A stretch of 22,548 nucleotides of DNA from a virus, in IMG/VR virus record IMGVR_UViG_3300030102_008231, positions 1-22,548 of that record; one strand, 5' to 3'. The notes below the pieces were generated by a model. That model had not been told where the DNA came from and did no database searches. It worked only from the letters and a program-made list of their open reading frames with translations. The position numbers and the translations under genes are program-made. Shown here one piece after another: positions 2,856 to 22,548 of this stretch (its first letter is position 1; the number at the start of each line of letters is the position of its first letter).

Positions 2856-3848
2856 TTAACTACCTTTACAATTATTTTTTTCAAAAAAGTTCCAAAGATC
2901 CCTATCTAAATCATTTTTAAATTTTTTATTATGGGGTTCGTTTAAATTATTTTCGTTCAAATAATTTTCAAAATTTTTGCTACCAAAAAGAGTGGCGGGT
3001 CTTAAATAATTTGAGGCATGCTGACCATTACTAAAAATTAACCCGTTCCATTGCAGAGTTTTTTTGTCTATTACAGATTTAAAGTCCTCTAAAGTATAAC
3101 CCTCTTCTATCCGTGCCCGAATATTTTTTATATTACTCTCCGCACTAAGCCTAAAATTCTTACCGGCTTTTTTATTTAAATAACTCAAAATTTCTTGTGC
3201 CATAATTAGTCTTTTTTCACGTTCTAAAATGGTAGCCTTAGGCTTTGTATTAGTTTTGGGTTTGGAGGCTTTTTTGACGGGTTTTTTTAACAATGGTGAG
3301 GGTTTTTGTTTTTGATGAGCTCCTTCTATTGGAGTTAATAAAGATAAAATATTTTTTCTAACATCGCTACAAATTGCATTTTCGTCAAAAGCATTTTTTT
3401 TCTTAAGTATATTACTATTTATAGTAATATAAGAATATATAGACGCCGCACCGTGTTTATGCGGTGTTGACGTATTTAAATACACCGTCTTTGATGCGGT
3501 GTTGACGTATTTTAATACACCGGTTTTTAAAGGGTTTGATGCGGTGTTGACGTATTTAAATACATCGGGATTTTGTAAATTTTCGCTATGTATAATCTTA
3601 AATCTTACATTTGTTATAACGCCTTTGACCAAGCTTTTTGTTTTAATATATTTGTCAGCTTCTAATTTATTTATGGCATGTTTTAAATTAACTCTTTTTA
3701 TGCCCAATTCTTTTTCCATTGTTTTTAGCTTTACATCAAAAAATTCATCGGTTTTAATATTTTCTCCATACTTTTTTAAATACGATAAAACTACTGCGGC
3801 ATTTAAGCCCACACTTTTTATTGTATTTAGCCCCACTTTTAGAATCAT
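2856..3848 (-). CDS. phage replication initiator (Phg_2220_C C-terminal domain)
   Basis: A 330-aa replication protein functionally like lambda O. The N-terminal ~90 residues look like a winged-helix domain. Residues ~94-132 are encoded by the iteron repeats and are not folded-looking. A Lys/Pro-rich linker (~180-212) follows, then a C-terminal domain (~220-300) matching the conserved phage C-terminus: ILSYLNKKAGKNFR, then IRARIEEGYTLEDF, then VIDKKTLQW, then YLRPATLFGSKNFENYLN. The frame begins at TTG 3872, but ATG 3848 is preferred because of the GGGGGA just upstream. The helicase gene lies 47 bases downstream. I infer that the protein binds the repeats within its own gene and recruits the ATPase. 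Confidence 0.8.
   Translation of the reverse strand: MILKVGLNTIKSVGLNAAVVLSYLKKYGENIKTDEFFDVKLKTMEKELGIKRVNLKHAINKLEADKYIKTKSLVKGVITNVRFKIIHSENLQNPDVFKYVNTASNPLKTGVLKYVNTASKTVYLNTSTPHKHGAASIYSYITINSNILKKKNAFDENAICSDVRKNILSLLTPIEGAHQKQKPSPLLKKPVKKASKPKTNTKPKATILEREKRLIMAQEILSYLNKKAGKNFRLSAESNIKNIRARIEEGYTLEDFKSVIDKKTLQWNGLIFSNGQHASNYLRPATLFGSKNFENYLNENNLNEPHNKKFKNDLDRDLWNFFEKNNCKGS
3411..3428. repeat. AT-rich perfect hairpin beside iterons (candidate unwinding element)
   Basis: ATTACTATTTATAGTAAT is an 8-bp perfect inverted repeat with a 2-base centre, embedded in a nearly pure A/T stretch (~3403-3440) inside the initiator gene. It lies immediately beyond the three iterons in the direction of transcription, the same order as iterons and AT-rich region in lambda ori. 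It is a candidate DNA-unwinding element. Confidence 0.5.
3459..3567. repeat. three iteron-like repeats: putative replication origin
   Basis: Three copies of a 29-bp repeat occur at 3459-3487, 3494-3522 and 3539-3567, with at most one or two differences between copies. Each contains the core GCGGTGTTGACGTATTT, a GTATTTAAATAC palindrome (one base altered in copy 2), and outer CGGTGT/ACACCG arms, so each is itself dyad-symmetric. The copy-to-copy distances are 35 and 45 bp. Because 35 is not a multiple of three, copy 1 is translated in a different frame from copies 2 and 3, so the DNA rather than the peptide is conserved. Together with the AT-rich hairpin this matches a lambda-type origin inside the initiator gene. 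Confidence 0.75.
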
Positions 3849-3925
3849 AATTCCCCCGTTTATTGTTGACAAAATTATTACATTAACTAATCATTGTGCA
3901 ATACTTTTTTAAAGACAAGGACAAA
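3849..3925. promoter_or_regulatory. divergent promoter region between the two early operons
   Basis: This 77-bp interval separates the minus-strand replication operon from the plus-strand recombination operon and should carry both promoters. On the minus strand TTGCAC (3901-3896), a 16-bp spacer and AATAAT (3879-3874) make a reasonable sigma70-type promoter. On the plus strand a perfect TTGACA (3866-3871) is present, but the -10 candidates at 16-18 bp (around 3888-3895) are poor, so activation or another start point is possible. No clear repressor operator is seen. Confidence 0.45.
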
Positions 3926-5782: not shown

Positions 5783-6111
5783 AAAACTATAAATTAATAA
5801 ATAATTGGTCTACAAGAGAAGAATTAAATAATTTAGAAAATTCATCCAATTTTATCTCCAAAGAAGAAATAGAAAAAATAAAAAAAGCAATTAAAATAAA
5901 AAAGCATTTAGAGGACTCCGGCTTTTATACTTCTCACTACAAAAAAGAAAAAAAAGTTAATAAAAATCAGAGGGATGTTTCCTATGTGTTTAATGTTGAA
6001 AAGCATTGTTATAAAATGGGTGATTCTAGTGACACATTTCATGGGGCAGTCTTCTCTATTTACAAATGGCTTGTTAGATGCGGAGAGGTTAGAGAGTATG
6101 AACTTATTTGA
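5779..6111 (+). CDS. hypothetical protein, 110 aa
   Basis: Unrecognised. The N-terminal half is Lys/Glu-rich and helical (SKEEIEKIKKAIKIKKHLED); the C-terminal half looks more globular (VSYVFNVEKHCYKMGDSSD). ATG 5779 overlaps the upstream stop as ATGA, with GAGG ahead of it; an earlier in-frame ATG at 5740 lies inside the zinc-ribbon gene and is less likely. The last 14 bases overlap the NlpC/P60 start. Confidence 0.5.
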   Translation: MKNYKLINNWSTREELNNLENSSNFISKEEIEKIKKAIKIKKHLEDSGFYTSHYKKEKKVNKNQRDVSYVFNVEKHCYKMGDSSDTFHGAVFSIYKWLVRCGEVREYELI

Positions 6112-6520
6112 CAAAGAAACTACCAAACTAATGATAGAATATTCTAAAACCTTTATCGGCAAGCCTTATCGTTGGGGTGGTAGTGGAGTGGCAGGTTTTG
6201 ATTGTTCTGGTTTTATTCAAGAGGTACTCAGCTGTGTTGGCCTTGATCCTAGGGGTGATCAAACTTCTCAGGGTCTTTATAATTACTTTGTTAAAAATGC
6301 TAAAGGTAGTGGTGTGGCACCTGGCGCATTACTTTTTTGGGGTAAAAGCACCGAAAAAATTACGCACGTTTCTCTTGCTATTGATTACTTTTATCATATA
6401 GAAGCCGGTGGCGGCAACTCTCAAACAACTAATTTGGAGGTTGCTGAAAAACAAGGCGCTATGGTCAGAATTAGACCGTTAAAAAGCAGAAAAGATTTAA
6501 TTGCAGCAATTAAAATTTGA
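6098..6520 (+). CDS. NlpC/P60 cysteine hydrolase (candidate endolysin)
   Basis: A 140-aa single-domain NlpC/P60 protein that would cleave peptide bonds in peptidoglycan. The catalytic Cys36 sits in GFDCSGFIQE, the histidine is His90 (ITHVSLAID), and His100 (FYHIEAGGG) fits the third polar residue. The hallmark KPYRWGGSG precedes the Cys. There is no signal peptide, so as an endolysin it would need a holin. Alternatively it is a tail-associated hydrolase, but its place at the end of the early operon, away from the tail genes, argues for a lysis role. The frame opens at 5975, but ATG 6098 has a GAGAGG/GAGAG-type site and matches the domain start. A strong terminator follows. Confidence 0.8.
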   Translation: MNLFDKETTKLMIEYSKTFIGKPYRWGGSGVAGFDCSGFIQEVLSCVGLDPRGDQTSQGLYNYFVKNAKGSGVAPGALLFWGKSTEKITHVSLAIDYFYHIEAGGGNSQTTNLEVAEKQGAMVRIRPLKSRKDLIAAIKI

Positions 6521-6627: not shown

Positions 6628-6810
6628 AAATAGATCTTCTCTTAAAGACTCTATTTGTTTTTCAATTCTTTTTGATCTACTTTCATTTTTTTCTAAATGA
6701 TCTATAAAATCTAAATACTTCTCCTTAACTTCTGCCTTTTCGTCTTTTACAGTCAAATATCTTGTAATAAGATTAATTGCAAAAGGTATAAGCAATTCAA
6801 TTAATTTCAT
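6622..6810 (-). CDS. small membrane-anchored coiled-coil protein (holin/spanin-like candidate)
   Basis: A 62-aa protein with one hydrophobic N-terminal segment (LIELLIPFAINLITRYL, residues 3-19) followed by a strongly charged helix (residues 20-62) likely to form a coiled coil. That topology is shared by class III-like holins and inner-membrane spanin subunits, but no family is recognised. The start overlaps the lipoprotein stop as TAATG, with GAGG upstream; lipoprotein plus single-TM neighbour resembles a spanin pair in outline only. Last gene of the late operon. Confidence 0.55.
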   Translation of the reverse strand: MKLIELLIPFAINLITRYLTVKDEKAEVKEKYLDFIDHLEKNESRSKRIEKQIESLREDLFK

Positions 6811-7493
6811 TATTCATCCTCGTAGATAATTTCTTCATAGCCGTAAGAAATTAATTTATGAAGTCTATCACGACCCATAAAAAGAAAAACACAGTCTCCA
6901 CTCTCCGGTTCATACTTAAAACTTTTTTTGCCGTTAAAAGACATAATTGGACAATTGGATCTAACTTCTAGGTCTTCATCAAACTTAATCATTTGAATTA
7001 GTCCTTTTTTGCTTTGGCATAAAGAAACGCCATTAGAAATTATTTCCTTACCATTGCAAAAGTTTTTTGCTTTTATGTTGTAGTTTTTTGTTTGAAAAGC
7101 TATTTGACCAAATTTACCTTTTCCATTTTCGTTTAAGGCACTTATAAAAACTATACACTCTTTTTCTATTCCGATTGGTTTATAATTAAATTGAAACTTT
7201 TTCCTATTTTTTATAATCCTTTTTTTGTGGTAGGCATTTCTTAAAACTATCTCTCTATGACAACTTTCAATTTTAACAAAATTTAGCCTAAATGGAGTTT
7301 CTATTTGTATTAAATAGCTTTTAGAAAAGGTAGGCACACCTATACCTACAAATGACTGCCCATTTACGGAAAATATAAGATCTTTTTTATAATTTCTTTT
7401 AACTTTTATAACATCCGACGTTCTAGAACAGCTAAAAAGAAATAAAAAAAGAAAAAATATTATTCGGAAATCTTTTTTCTTAAATCTACGCAT
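6810..7493 (-). CDS. phage-encoded lipoprotein, unknown function
   Basis: A 227-aa secreted protein with a basic n-region (MRRFKKKDFR), a hydrophobic stretch (IIFFLFLFLF) and a lipobox LFSC with Cys22 as the predicted acylation site. The mature part is Lys-rich, probably beta-structured, and contains five further cysteines that could form disulphides. No domain is recognised. It is far larger than known outer-membrane spanins. Phage lipoproteins at the end of late operons often alter the envelope or block superinfection; that is a hypothesis here. The start overlaps the previous gene by 34 bases with a weak ribosome binding site, suggesting coupled translation. Confidence 0.65.
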   Translation of the reverse strand: MRRFKKKDFRIIFFLFLFLFSCSRTSDVIKVKRNYKKDLIFSVNGQSFVGIGVPTFSKSYLIQIETPFRLNFVKIESCHREIVLRNAYHKKRIIKNRKKFQFNYKPIGIEKECIVFISALNENGKGKFGQIAFQTKNYNIKAKNFCNGKEIISNGVSLCQSKKGLIQMIKFDEDLEVRSNCPIMSFNGKKSFKYEPESGDCVFLFMGRDRLHKLISYGYEEIIYEDE

Positions 7494-18625: not shown

Positions 18626-19555
18626 TTAAGCCACGCAATTTTTTACAAGATATGCTGCCTTTACATTACTTAGGAATAGATCATAATTGTCTTCCACTAG
18701 AACACAAAAAGACCCTGGAGGGTTACTTTGAGCATATTTGTACACTCTACGTGGAGCTGATTGCTGAATTCTATAACCCAAAGAAACTTGATAAGGGTTA
18801 GCTCTCTCAGGAACAACTGCAAAAATAGTATTTTTTCCAAAGCACGGAGCTAAACTAGAACTTTGACCTTCTGCAGCACTCTCGTACATAGCATCAGATC
18901 TGATGATTTTTTTAACGCCTAAAGCCACTGCAAGCTCATCGTTGTTAAGTCCACCAGTTTGGTTATACTTATACCCGAGAGCATCTAGAAGCTTAGAAGA
19001 AAAACGAAGTTTATTCCAGACTTGCCATGACATAATAGCAACGTTAGGAGCCATACCACAACCATCCATTACAGTGTCTCTAGCTGTTGCGGCGTCACCA
19101 ATAGGGTCACTATTTGCAAAGTCTGACCATTGTGCTGTGCCTGACAAAGTAGTGTTTTGAGTAAGTGTAGATGTATCTCCTAAAACATCACCAAGTGTCT
19201 TTTCCTTTTCCAAAATTAGTTGAGAAGTTAATCCCACCACTTCATCGCGAAGTGCGTCGTATGGCAGATCCGCATTGGCAATATCGGCGGCACTTACTAG
19301 CGACTCCAGGCCATGCCCCTCTATTTGGTATGTACTTTGCTCTCTAACAATTGGGTTAACTCTCCTATAAGCACCACGGCCACCTGAAAAGTTTGTTTCA
19401 ATTCGTAGGTGATTAGTTCCATATTTAGCAAGCTTACCAGAATATTGCTTAACTCTAATTTCTGGTAAAATAGACTCACATGCGAAGCCTTCTGGAATAT
19501 AGGCAGCACTTGCCTGTGTTAAAAGTTTATCTACCGTAGCTTTGTATTGGCTCAT
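18626..19555 (-). CDS. major capsid protein
   Basis: A 309-aa protein with features of HK97-fold capsid proteins: an N-terminal arm (YIPEGFACESILPEIRVKQY), a P-domain spine helix region (DALRDEVVGLTSQLILEKEK), and A-domain parts including PNVAIMSWQVWNKLRFS. Length and surroundings (protease-scaffold and decoration gene upstream, connector downstream) fit the major head protein of Mu/B3-type siphophages. There is no obvious N-terminal delta domain, consistent with a separate scaffold. AAGGAG precedes ATG 19555. Codons are richer in GC than in flanking genes, consistent with high expression. Confidence 0.85.
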   Translation of the reverse strand: MSQYKATVDKLLTQASAAYIPEGFACESILPEIRVKQYSGKLAKYGTNHLRIETNFSGGRGAYRRVNPIVREQSTYQIEGHGLESLVSAADIANADLPYDALRDEVVGLTSQLILEKEKTLGDVLGDTSTLTQNTTLSGTAQWSDFANSDPIGDAATARDTVMDGCGMAPNVAIMSWQVWNKLRFSSKLLDALGYKYNQTGGLNNDELAVALGVKKIIRSDAMYESAAEGQSSSLAPCFGKNTIFAVVPERANPYQVSLGYRIQQSAPRRVYKYAQSNPPGSFCVLVEDNYDLFLSNVKAAYLVKNCVA

Positions 19556-19598
19556 TTTTTATTCTCCTTTTTATTTTTTACAAATTTTAAAATCAAAC

Positions 19599-19985
19599 TT
19601 AAGCATCAGAACCAGAGGCTTGAAATGCTACAACTCTAACGCCAATAACATCTCCGTCTGCACCACCGGCTTCGAAGGCAATGGCTCCCACATATTCCCC
19701 TGCCGCATCGGCTATTTCACCCTTACCTGCCGATGTTGATGTTAGAAGTTTTCCAACTGCACATGCCTCGCCTACTTCTAGCTTGGCACCGCCACCAGGT
19801 AGAGCTACATCTAAAAATTCACCACTAGAAACTGACTCATCTCCTTGATGTATTCCTATGGCTCTACCATTGGCTCCACATTCTGTTACAGTACCATTGG
19901 CACTTAAGGCTACAAATCTAAATTTACGGATAGTCCCACCTGCTTTAAAAGTACTAATATTTACTGGTTGTGTAACTGCTGCCAT
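19599..19985 (-). CDS. capsid decoration protein (DUF2190-like)
   Basis: A 128-aa small beta protein rich in Gly and Ala. Its pattern FRFVALSANGTVTECGANGR, then AIGIHQGDES, then a GEYVGAIAFEAG block and GVRVVAF end resembles DUF2190/capsid-cement proteins that sit on the outside of heads and stabilise them. It stands directly before the capsid gene, with AAGGAG upstream of ATG 19985. Confidence 0.7.
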   Translation of the reverse strand: MAAVTQPVNISTFKAGGTIRKFRFVALSANGTVTECGANGRAIGIHQGDESVSSGEFLDVALPGGGAKLEVGEACAVGKLLTSTSAGKGEIADAAGEYVGAIAFEAGGADGDVIGVRVVAFQASGSDA

Positions 19986-20019
19986 CTTTTAACTCCTTTT
20001 TAAAAAACTATTATAAATC

Positions 20020-20520
20020 TTATAAATACAATTTTGATTCTTCGCTATGCTTTGCAAGTTCTTCGCCAATTGCAATGTCTAAAGCGATATTTTCTTCTTT
20101 AGCTCTTTTTTCGGCTAACTCAATAATTTTATCTTCAAAATTTTCTTTGGTTAGTTTTGACTCTTTTGGAACAACATTGTTGCCAGATTCAGAAAGTTTA
20201 ATTTCAGTTTGAAGAGATAAAAACTTTTCCATGTCGTTGTCAATAAAAGCTTGTCTTTGTGCCTCAACAACAACACCTTCGCTTAATTTTTTGTCAAAAG
20301 CTTGGTTTTTTTCCATTAGTTCTTTTTCTTTTTTGATTTCAGCAAGTTTTTTCTCTTCTTCCATCATTTTTTCTTCTAGCTCTCTTCTCATAGAAATTAA
20401 TTCTTCATCTTTTTTAAGAAGGTCATCTTTTAAAGCTTGAATCATTCTCATTGCATCCTCTAAAGACATTTCTTCTTGCATCTTTTTTTCCTCTTCTAAT
20501 TCTCTTGCATCTCCATACAT
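20020..20520 (-). CDS. nested scaffolding protein (Mu Z / lambda Nu3 analogue)
   Basis: In-frame internal gene at the 3' end of the protease ORF. ATG 20520 has AAGGA exactly seven bases upstream, and from there (MYGDARELEEEKKMQEEM) the sequence is a 166-aa highly charged, coiled-coil-rich protein typical of scaffolds. In Mu (I/Z) and lambda (C/Nu3) the scaffold is the separately translated C-terminus of the protease. The separate start is inferred from the ribosome binding site. Confidence 0.75.
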   Translation of the reverse strand: MYGDARELEEEKKMQEEMSLEDAMRMIQALKDDLLKKDEELISMRRELEEKMMEEEKKLAEIKKEKELMEKNQAFDKKLSEGVVVEAQRQAFIDNDMEKFLSLQTEIKLSESGNNVVPKESKLTKENFEDKIIELAEKRAKEENIALDIAIGEELAKHSEESKLYL

Positions 20521-21009
20521 AGTCTTATCCTTGTTAGGGTTTATAATCTTTATTTCACTTAGCACTATTGGTTCCATTTGTTTAACTACAGGTCTATTTG
20601 TTAAACCTGCACCAAAAAGAGTAGGTCCATAATTTTTTAGTGTCTCATTATCTTTATAAGCAAAAGAAAAATCGGCACTAATGTATTTAAAAGCTTTATT
20701 ATCTAAACTTGCTTTACCTGTAGGTGTCCATTCGACGTTTGCCCATAACTCTTTTTTGTCTTCGCTTAAAACTAGTTCTTTTATCCAACCGGCAGCTTCT
20801 CCTTCACTATTATGGGAAAAGTCTATCATTAAATCTATGCCTCTAACTTTTTCAGCAAAGTTTTTAACCATATTAAGTAGATCTTTTTCACTTACTTCTA
20901 TTTCTTGACCATCATGGAAGAATTTCCCAGCCCTTAAAATTTGTATTTTATCGGGTGCAGCTTGTTCACTAAAATTAATAACAAACGGTGAGGTCCTAAA
21001 TTCTGACAT
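20020..21009 (-). CDS. internal-start form: Mu I-like protease without N-terminal domain
   Basis: A second internal start at ATG 21009 has AAAAAGGA with seven bases to the ATG and begins MSEFRTSPFVINFSEQAAPD, a natural N-terminus for the protease domain. This would give a 329-aa protease-scaffold protein alongside the 531-aa product. It is predicted only from the ribosome binding site and domain boundary. Confidence 0.5.
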   Translation of the reverse strand: MSEFRTSPFVINFSEQAAPDKIQILRAGKFFHDGQEIEVSEKDLLNMVKNFAEKVRGIDLMIDFSHNSEGEAAGWIKELVLSEDKKELWANVEWTPTGKASLDNKAFKYISADFSFAYKDNETLKNYGPTLFGAGLTNRPVVKQMEPIVLSEIKIINPNKDKTMYGDARELEEEKKMQEEMSLEDAMRMIQALKDDLLKKDEELISMRRELEEKMMEEEKKLAEIKKEKELMEKNQAFDKKLSEGVVVEAQRQAFIDNDMEKFLSLQTEIKLSESGNNVVPKESKLTKENFEDKIIELAEKRAKEENIALDIAIGEELAKHSEESKLYL

Positions 21010-21615
21010 TGTATTTTTCCTTTTTAGAGATGCATAGATAAGTATAACACCTTGCTCCGGGATTTCAAAAGAGCTAAAAGTGTCTTTATCAAATAAATTT
21101 GGGTCTTTTTGCCTAAAATAATAAGACTCTTGTTTTTCGTCTACTTTAAAAAATTTGCCGCCAGCTTTTTGTAACTTCTCTTTAGCTTTTTCTAAAGTCA
21201 TGTTTGGAGTTTTTTTAACTATAACAGTCTGGAGAGTTTTTTCGGCTAATTTATTTTCATCGGCTTTTTTCATTTGTCTTAGAATCTTATTAGCCCATAC
21301 TTGACCAGCATCACCACCCCATAAAAGCCATGAAATATAAGATGCACTATACGGTTCTTTTTTTATGTGATTTTTCTTATAGGTTTGATGACGATTAAAA
21401 AAATTAACCATCTTTTTTATAACTTCTGGACTTATTTTAGATCTATTTTTTAGACTTGTTGCCCTTGCAACACCAGAACCTATATTTAAATCTCCTGCTT
21501 GTTTTGTAGTTAAACCACCTTTTCCAGTCTTTTTTCTTAGTCTTAAACCTAGGTCAGCATTACTTGAAACGCCTTTGGGTGGAGTAAAATTTATGTGAGA
21601 ATATCTTTTTATCAT
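20020..21615 (-). CDS. head maturation protease with extra N-terminal domain (Mu I-like)
   Basis: A 531-aa, three-part protein. Residues ~10-120 form a domain I associate with head-module proteins: PPKGVSSNADLGLRLRKK, then GVARATSLKNRSKISPEVI, then MVNFFNRH and YISWLLWGGDAGQVWANKIL. Residues ~203-350 match Mu gpI-type protease: GKFFHDGQEIEV, IDFSHNSEGEAAGWIKEL, then LWANVEWTPTGKASL, FKYISADFSF and LFGAGLTNRPVV. Residues 366-531 are the coiled-coil scaffold. ATG 21615 overlaps the stop of the MuF gene by four bases. The protease would cut the scaffold and itself inside the prohead. Two strong internal ribosome binding sites suggest several products from one frame. Confidence 0.8.
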   Translation of the reverse strand: MIKRYSHINFTPPKGVSSNADLGLRLRKKTGKGGLTTKQAGDLNIGSGVARATSLKNRSKISPEVIKKMVNFFNRHQTYKKNHIKKEPYSASYISWLLWGGDAGQVWANKILRQMKKADENKLAEKTLQTVIVKKTPNMTLEKAKEKLQKAGGKFFKVDEKQESYYFRQKDPNLFDKDTFSSFEIPEQGVILIYASLKRKNTMSEFRTSPFVINFSEQAAPDKIQILRAGKFFHDGQEIEVSEKDLLNMVKNFAEKVRGIDLMIDFSHNSEGEAAGWIKELVLSEDKKELWANVEWTPTGKASLDNKAFKYISADFSFAYKDNETLKNYGPTLFGAGLTNRPVVKQMEPIVLSEIKIINPNKDKTMYGDARELEEEKKMQEEMSLEDAMRMIQALKDDLLKKDEELISMRRELEEKMMEEEKKLAEIKKEKELMEKNQAFDKKLSEGVVVEAQRQAFIDNDMEKFLSLQTEIKLSESGNNVVPKESKLTKENFEDKIIELAEKRAKEENIALDIAIGEELAKHSEESKLYL

Positions 21616-22548
21616 AATATCCCCTGGTCACTCATTTGATGGGCTAAAATAAAAGCCTCTAGTTTTTCGCTAAATTGTAAAAACTTTTCATTACTCTTTT
21701 TAATTTTTAATTTTTGAATTTTCCTACCCTTTAAATCACCCACCAAGATAGGAAGAATTAAAGATCTACAGTTCCAATGCAAAGGAGGCGTAAACTTAAG
21801 CATATTTGGGTCATCTTTTGCGAAAATGGTTCCATTTAGTTCTTCACATATAGGCGTTCTATCTTGGGTGTAATTATTTACAAATTGAAATGCTTCTATC
21901 TGTTTATCTACTTCAGGATCAGTAAAAAAAGCACTACTTGCCTCAGAAATAGTTTGATGTGCTGTTAAAGGTGCGCCTGCTCTTATTGAGGGTCCATCTA
22001 TAAAGTCTTCGGCGTTATCTTGCATATCTTTTTTTACTTGATTTATAGCCTTTTCCTGTGCAACCGAAGTGGTGTATTGGAAATATATTGCTTTTTCCAA
22101 GTCCGCTAATTGTGTTTGGACTAACAATTCTTGTTGTGTTTTTATTCGTCTTCGGACTCTAGGTGGAAGTTTTTTAAACATGGTTTCTATGCGTTTATTT
22201 GTTTTTTTTACTTTTTTTGTTGCCTTTTTAACTGTTTTACTCTCCACAAATTGTATGGAATATATTTCATTTTCTGATAATTCAAATTTAGCTTTTGGAA
22301 CTTCCTTTTTTCTTTGTCTAAGAGTTTCGTAAGCAATAATTGTCAAAACATCTAATAGATCAGCTTTATATTGATTAAGACCCGATGCATCAATTCCTTT
22401 GATGGCATCGAGTTTTTTTGAATTGGATAGGCCTGACTCCTTGGCCATTACTTTATTTATAATGGTATCTCCAATGAAAGCCAAATTACTTTGCATTACA
22501 TCTAGGACTGCCTGCTCGCTGTCTTTTAAAAGCTTATCTAGCTCTTTT
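21612..22548 (-). CDS. MuF-type minor head protein (5' end outside window)
   Basis: The frame is open to the right window edge (KELDKLLKDSEQAVLDV precedes Met at 22496), so the N-terminus, usually next to the portal gene, is missing. The C-terminal part has the phage Mu F / SPP1 gp7 head morphogenesis motif: TQDRTPICEELNGTIF, then PPLHWNCRSLILP. Basic helical regions (KKATKKVKKTNKR) precede it. MuF proteins sit inside the head near the portal and may be injected. No toxin domain is attached. Downstream coupling to the protease is by a 4-base overlap. Confidence 0.85.
   Translation of the reverse strand, partial: KELDKLLKDSEQAVLDVMQSNLAFIGDTIINKVMAKESGLSNSKKLDAIKGIDASGLNQYKADLLDVLTIIAYETLRQRKKEVPKAKFELSENEIYSIQFVESKTVKKATKKVKKTNKRIETMFKKLPPRVRRRIKTQQELLVQTQLADLEKAIYFQYTTSVAQEKAINQVKKDMQDNAEDFIDGPSIRAGAPLTAHQTISEASSAFFTDPEVDKQIEAFQFVNNYTQDRTPICEELNGTIFAKDDPNMLKFTPPLHWNCRSLILPILVGDLKGRKIQKLKIKKSNEKFLQFSEKLEAFILAHQMSDQGIL

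Follow-up and report, generated by a model that had tools for sequence, protein, structure and literature searches.

Initiator gene and its product

The viral DNA analyzed here (IMG/VR record IMGVR_UViG_3300030102_008231, positions 1 to 22,548; this whole 22,548-nucleotide stretch is referred to as the window) carries on its minus strand a putative replication initiator gene (2856-3848), within which three repeats, or iterons, are followed in gene order by an A+T-rich palindrome. Together these form a candidate replication origin (3403-3567). The gene encodes 330 amino acids from an ATG at 3848, a start common to the initiators of the window and of a related viral contig (L001), or 338 amino acids from an alternative TTG at 3872. 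An open reading frame on the plus strand (3499-3912) was taken as a shadow frame, as the matching part of L001 lists only a 61-residue frame there.

The initiator matches Pfam PF09524 (Phg_2220_C; E=9e-25, 87 bits against a cut-off of 27) over residues 228-306 of 338, and phrog_428, a replication initiation protein family in PHROG (E=2e-35). Apart from Phg_2220_C, the Pfam scan gave only a sub-threshold match to MC2, with no match to RepA_N at E<=0.1 and none to DnaD, and the lambda O profile did not match either. The AlphaFold2 model consists of a winged-helix N-terminal domain (about residues 7-85), a low-confidence stretch (89-207), and a helical C-terminal domain (about 209-300). The highest structural matches of the N-terminal domain include 4pql and 4pt7 ("initiator"; Z 10.3 and 10.1) and 5kbj ("Rep-DNA complex"; Z 9.1), all three of which we take to belong to the pSK41-type RepA family. 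The iterons and the palindrome encode residues ~95-148, within the predicted disordered linker between the two domains (predicted local distance difference test, pLDDT, <50).

Iterons, palindrome, and the block between them

The repeat GCGGTGTTGACGTATTTWAATACAYCG, allowing at most one mismatch, occurs on the plus strand at 3461-3487 (copy 1), 3496-3522 (copy 2), and 3541-3567 (copy 3), with a repeat length of 27-29 bp. Since 0.00 copies are expected in shuffled sequence, the three near-identical repeats reported by the first-pass annotation are clearly real. No further copy is present within the window, and none lies outside the origin segment in the records of L001 or of a more distant relative, L011. 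In the direction of the gene, on the minus strand, we refer to the copies as iteron A (copy 3, with core TACGTCAACACCGCA), iteron B (copy 2, 45 bp after A), and iteron C (copy 1, 35 bp after B), all of which are kept in both L001 and L011. Iterons A and B are read in frame 0 and both encode the peptide KYVNTAS, while iteron C is read in another frame and encodes a different peptide; the different frame of copy 1 had been claimed before, and follows from the start offsets of 35 and 45 bp in window coordinates (45 then 35 in gene order).

The A+T-rich palindrome (TATATTACTATAAATAGTAATATA; 3408-3431, minus strand) comes after the iterons in gene order and is a candidate duplex-unwinding element. 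Written as the hairpin TATATTACTATTTATAGTAATATA, it has either 10-bp arms and a 4-nt loop or 11-bp arms and a 2-nt loop. The earlier proposal of an AT-rich hairpin region beside the repeats stands, and no other perfect hairpin with arms of at least 10 bp (loop of at most 8) was found in the window. Further, among all 40-mers in the 22.5 kb, the one starting at 3402, which covers the palindrome, is the least stable. Between iteron C and the palindrome lies a conserved block (3432-3456, minus strand). Part of it and the end of iteron C make up a small inverted repeat (CGCA-N9-TGCG) present in the window, L001, and L011 alike. Relative to L011, this block is the best conserved DNA of the gene (92% nucleotide identity vs. 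56% for the rest of the gene), and it is perhaps a further protein site.

The iterons also have internal symmetry. A 12-bp core (GTATTTAAATAC) is perfectly palindromic in two of the copies (1 and 3), copy 2 matching at 5/6 bp. The outer arms CGGTGT...ACACCG, whose center lies about 2 bp off that of the core, are perfect only in copies 1 and 2. Across all six copies from the window and L001, the right half ACACCG with its flank does not vary, but a perfect outer left arm is found in only three of the six. The iterons of L011 have lost both the outer symmetry and the symmetry of the AT core, and retain the half TACRTCNACACCGCA. The two-fold symmetry noted in the first-pass annotation therefore exists as a dyad, but an imperfect one with arms off-center from the core and absent from L011, and strict conservation of the dyad was rejected on these grounds. 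The half-site TACRTCNACACCGCA is likely the recognition element, with the symmetric left half as a weaker partner.

Conservation in related phages

L001, the one viral contig containing an exact repeat, was found through the DNA pattern; a DNA search of the phage collection returned matches at chance level only. Its initiator is 72% identical to that of the window, and it keeps the three repeats, their 45/35 spacing, their frame relation, and an identical palindrome (TATATTACTATAAATAGTAATATA). Counting codons of unchanged degenerate residues, 44 of 45 synonymous codons are identical within 3403-3567, as compared to 128 of 189 elsewhere in the gene (Fisher p=7e-6), and the run of identical synonymous codons was matched by none of 20,000 shuffles. 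This conservation goes beyond what the protein needs, in agreement with the claim that selection acts on the DNA itself; synonymous sites, spacing, and frame can reveal such selection within a protein-coding stretch.

The initiator of L011 is only 44% identical to that of the window, and still its gene contains three 15-bp cores (TACRTCNACACCGCA, allowing one mismatch per copy) spaced 45 and 35 bp apart, so that the frames (0, 0, 2) and the spacing are the same in the window, L001, and L011. Nucleotide identity to L011 is 80% in the 15-bp cores and 56% in the remainder of the gene. L011 again has a perfect palindrome (TATAATTAATAAATTAATTATA), which differs in sequence from that of the window. 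The repeats are thus conserved in related phages, a check set by the first-pass annotation, in full in L001 and as cores, spacing, and frames in L011.

A different iteron (GTCATTSCAGTGTAATAAATTAC), in three copies at 33 bp, occupies the same linker position in L012 (2635-2733) and L013 (43-141), where a third version of the palindrome (TTTAATATATTAAAATATATTAAA) keeps the dyad. A MAFFT alignment of the palindromes was uninformative because they have little sequence in common. The helicase-like protein of L012 is 69% identical to that of the window. We tentatively suggest, at somewhat less than an even chance, that the origin slot is an exchangeable cassette, in which non-homologous iterons combine with the same helicase, the winged-helix domain diverges, and the palindrome is kept as a symmetry only. 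If so, an exchange of the DNA-binding domain would also exchange origin specificity, and recognition of the palindrome would depend on its shape or melting alone.

Repeats across Phg_2220_C initiators

We surveyed 81 non-redundant Phg_2220_C genes from viral and bacterial contigs and annotated phage loci for direct repeats significant at p<=0.05 relative to dinucleotide shuffles of each segment, with the linker defined as the 150 bp upstream of the C-terminal domain. Significant repeats were found in 64 of the 81 linkers, although some of these are low-complexity AT- or GA-rich repeats and the true number of iterons is lower, as compared to six of the 81 N-terminal segments and six of the 81 C-terminal segments. 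Of these 64 linkers, 22 have repeats offset by a number of base pairs not divisible by three. For L010, the survey entry from the L001 contig, the iterons fall outside the 150 bp surveyed. Clear dyads are present in several linkers, such as GTGCAAAATGCAC in L042 and CCTCTAAAACGAGG in L087, the latter of a form that we take to be close to the lambda iteron. A search of genomes with the initiator recovered relatives of the C-terminal domain only, mostly in Firmicutes.

Judged from the linker dyads and the 22 out-of-frame offsets, iterons that are dyad-symmetric and out of frame appear not to be unusual in the Phg_2220_C family. The survey suggests that these initiators generally carry an origin in the linker, in which case sequence alone could suffice to locate the origins of many temperate phages, of Firmicutes and others.

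Two of the surveyed genes are worth recording individually. The Phg_2220_C gene at L042:2548-3351 has out-of-frame 23-bp dyad iterons (CAGTGCAAAATGCACTG), and the one at L087:2557-3336 has dyad iterons (ACTGTCCTCTAAAACGAGGA) that are strikingly lambda-like.

A putative intragenic origin and its alternatives

Because the DNA is conserved beyond the coding need, the spacing, frame shift, and palindrome are kept, and the position is that of the origins in lambda O and pSK41 rep, the segment is very likely a phage replication origin that lies within the gene of its initiator and operates in the manner of lambda O/ori. Initiator binding, melting, helicase loading, and origin activity would proceed as follows. 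The winged-helix N-terminal domain would bind the three iterons, probably as one dimer each, and the assembled initiator complex may strain and melt the adjacent AT palindrome. The C-terminal Phg_2220_C domain would then recruit the replicative helicase, which in the simplest case would be the product of the next gene, a RecA-fold helicase, after which replication would start. Since the origin DNA encodes a disordered interdomain linker, constraints on this DNA, and even a shift of its frame, would cost the protein little. On this reading, the origin of an uncultured phage group is predicted with precision.

Several observations weigh against an origin here. The GC skew adds no independent evidence: plus- and minus-strand genes alike have a positive coding-strand skew (0.19 and 0.14), with third-position skew of 0.04 and 0.00, and the turning point expected at the origin in the first-pass annotation tracks gene orientation instead. 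We rejected GC skew as origin evidence because it follows the gene strand and is near zero at third positions. The synonymous test for the L011 cores is not significant alone (6/9 vs. 67/118, p=0.73), and L001 is the only close DNA-level relative found. For the N-terminal domain, the Foldseek E-values are weak, and Z scores near 10 are modestly above those of many unrelated winged helices (Z 8-9).

Among the alternatives, the repeats may be operators through which the initiator or a repressor regulates the operon, with the origin elsewhere. Dyad-symmetric sites bound by a winged-helix protein would fit this too, and a divergent promoter region lies about 300 bp from the repeats. However, the repeats are deep inside the gene and not at a promoter, promoter-like matches in the region do not exceed chance, a conserved AT palindrome comes after the repeats, and across the initiator family this slot is occupied by repeats and AT-rich tracts. 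We therefore regard operators as unlikely.

Less likely still is an element that acts at the RNA level, either through structure in the initiator mRNA or as an antisense target. The window strand does fold better than shuffles (z=-4.4), and the palindrome would form a hairpin in RNA as well. Nevertheless, the iteron part is predicted to fold differently in L001 (z=-1.4) and L011 (z=-1.2), and the AT hairpin alone recurs in L011, the stretch folded for L001 having ended before the hairpin. An Rfam search gave no match, and a tRNA search found none. With iteron-part folds not common to the relatives and no Rfam match, RNA-level structure was rejected.

It is highly improbable that the repeats arose by tandem duplication for a structural role in the protein, with the DNA similarity as a by-product, since the KYVNTAS peptide shared by copies 2 and 3 would fit but copy 1 encodes a different one in a frame shift conserved in L001 and L011, the synonymous sites of the segment are frozen, and the encoded region is predicted to be disordered. 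Clustered repeats are also found at packaging (pac), recombination, and partition sites, but no terminase, integrase, or ParAB-like gene was found adjoining, the neighbors being helicase and nuclease genes, and the position in the initiator linker recurs across the family, so that such a site is just as improbable.

Neighboring genes and the wider window

Directly after the initiator gene, on the same strand, is a gene encoding a 281-residue RecA-fold ATPase similar to DnaB-like helicases (1963-2808; phrog_239, E=5e-14; phrog_19, E=2e-8). AAA_25 is present in all four relatives, with the window copy below the Pfam cut-off, and gene order is the same in L001, L011, and L012. This ATPase is likely the replicative helicase loaded at the putative origin. 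A search of genomes with the helicase returned no relative, no solved structure related to it by sequence was found, and its structure model was discarded as too poor (pLDDT 45). The protein has a RecA core and seems to lack the primase-binding domain that DnaB carries at its N-terminus. The same module includes an endonuclease/resolvase-like gene on the minus strand (1294-1698; phrog_93 endonuclease, E=4e-10).

Elsewhere in the window, Mu-like head genes at 18626-22496 encode an F-like protein, a Mu I protease/scaffold, and a capsid E-like protein. The capsid relatives are distant (~27% identity) and occur in phages of Pseudomonas, Pasteurella, and others. The window combines these head genes with a replication module known, for the most part, from phages of Firmicutes. 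An NlpC/P60-like cysteine peptidase, recognized by the motif YRWGGSGVAGFDCSGF (6090-6520), is probably a lysis or cell-wall enzyme, and a putative lipoprotein gene (6810-7493) lies near it.

Comparison with known systems

The ori of lambda is situated inside O. Its 18-bp iterons are hyphenated inverted repeats to which O binds as dimers (PMC6022878), and a 39-bp AT-rich region adjoins them, with a flexible linker joining the O domains (PMC6022878, PMC7466680). The internal symmetry of the window iterons is thus not a departure from lambda. The broader claim that the arrangement mirrors lambda O/ori agrees with the position of the segment, which matches both lambda O and pSK41 Rep. In both phages the origin, putative in the window, is in the initiator gene, within the linker between a DNA-binding N-terminal domain and a partner-binding C-terminal domain, and iterons with hyphenated inverted symmetry are followed by an AT-rich region. 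Lambda differs in having four iterons, as compared to three with irregular 45/35 spacing and unrelated sequence in the window. The AT region of the window, unlike that of lambda, is a near-perfect palindrome, and where lambda has a P-type loader, the gene after the window initiator encodes a helicase-like ATPase. With no Pfam match to the lambda O family, the window initiator would be one that works like lambda O yet is not assigned to that family. In the Shiga-toxin lambdoid phages P27 and 933W, the number of iterons varies, lengthening the protein (PMC7466680); these differ from the window in having six lambda-type iterons and an initiator of another family.

Closer in protein family are ORF43 of the Francisella phage KIRK, for which a lambda-like origin within the gene has already been proposed (PMC7924643), and ORF11 of the Lactococcus phage r1t. 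Both share with the window a Phg_2220_C C-terminal domain and a linker region with repeats and AT-rich DNA, but their iterons are of other sequence and length, and the window linker is longer (~120 amino acids). In the staphylococcal plasmid pSK41, ori is central in rep and encodes a linker that is dispensable for Rep (PMC5703833). The window initiator gene resembles rep in the central position of its putative origin, and the domain layout is comparable, this RepA_N protein having a winged-helix N-terminal domain, whose fold that of the window may share, and a DnaD-like C-terminal domain. The differences are that the window initiator matches neither RepA_N nor DnaD in Pfam, and that pSK41 is a plasmid with four Rep boxes. 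The principle of placing an origin in the disordered linker of its initiator is thus already known from lambda and pSK41, and the window is a good new example of this known intragenic design.
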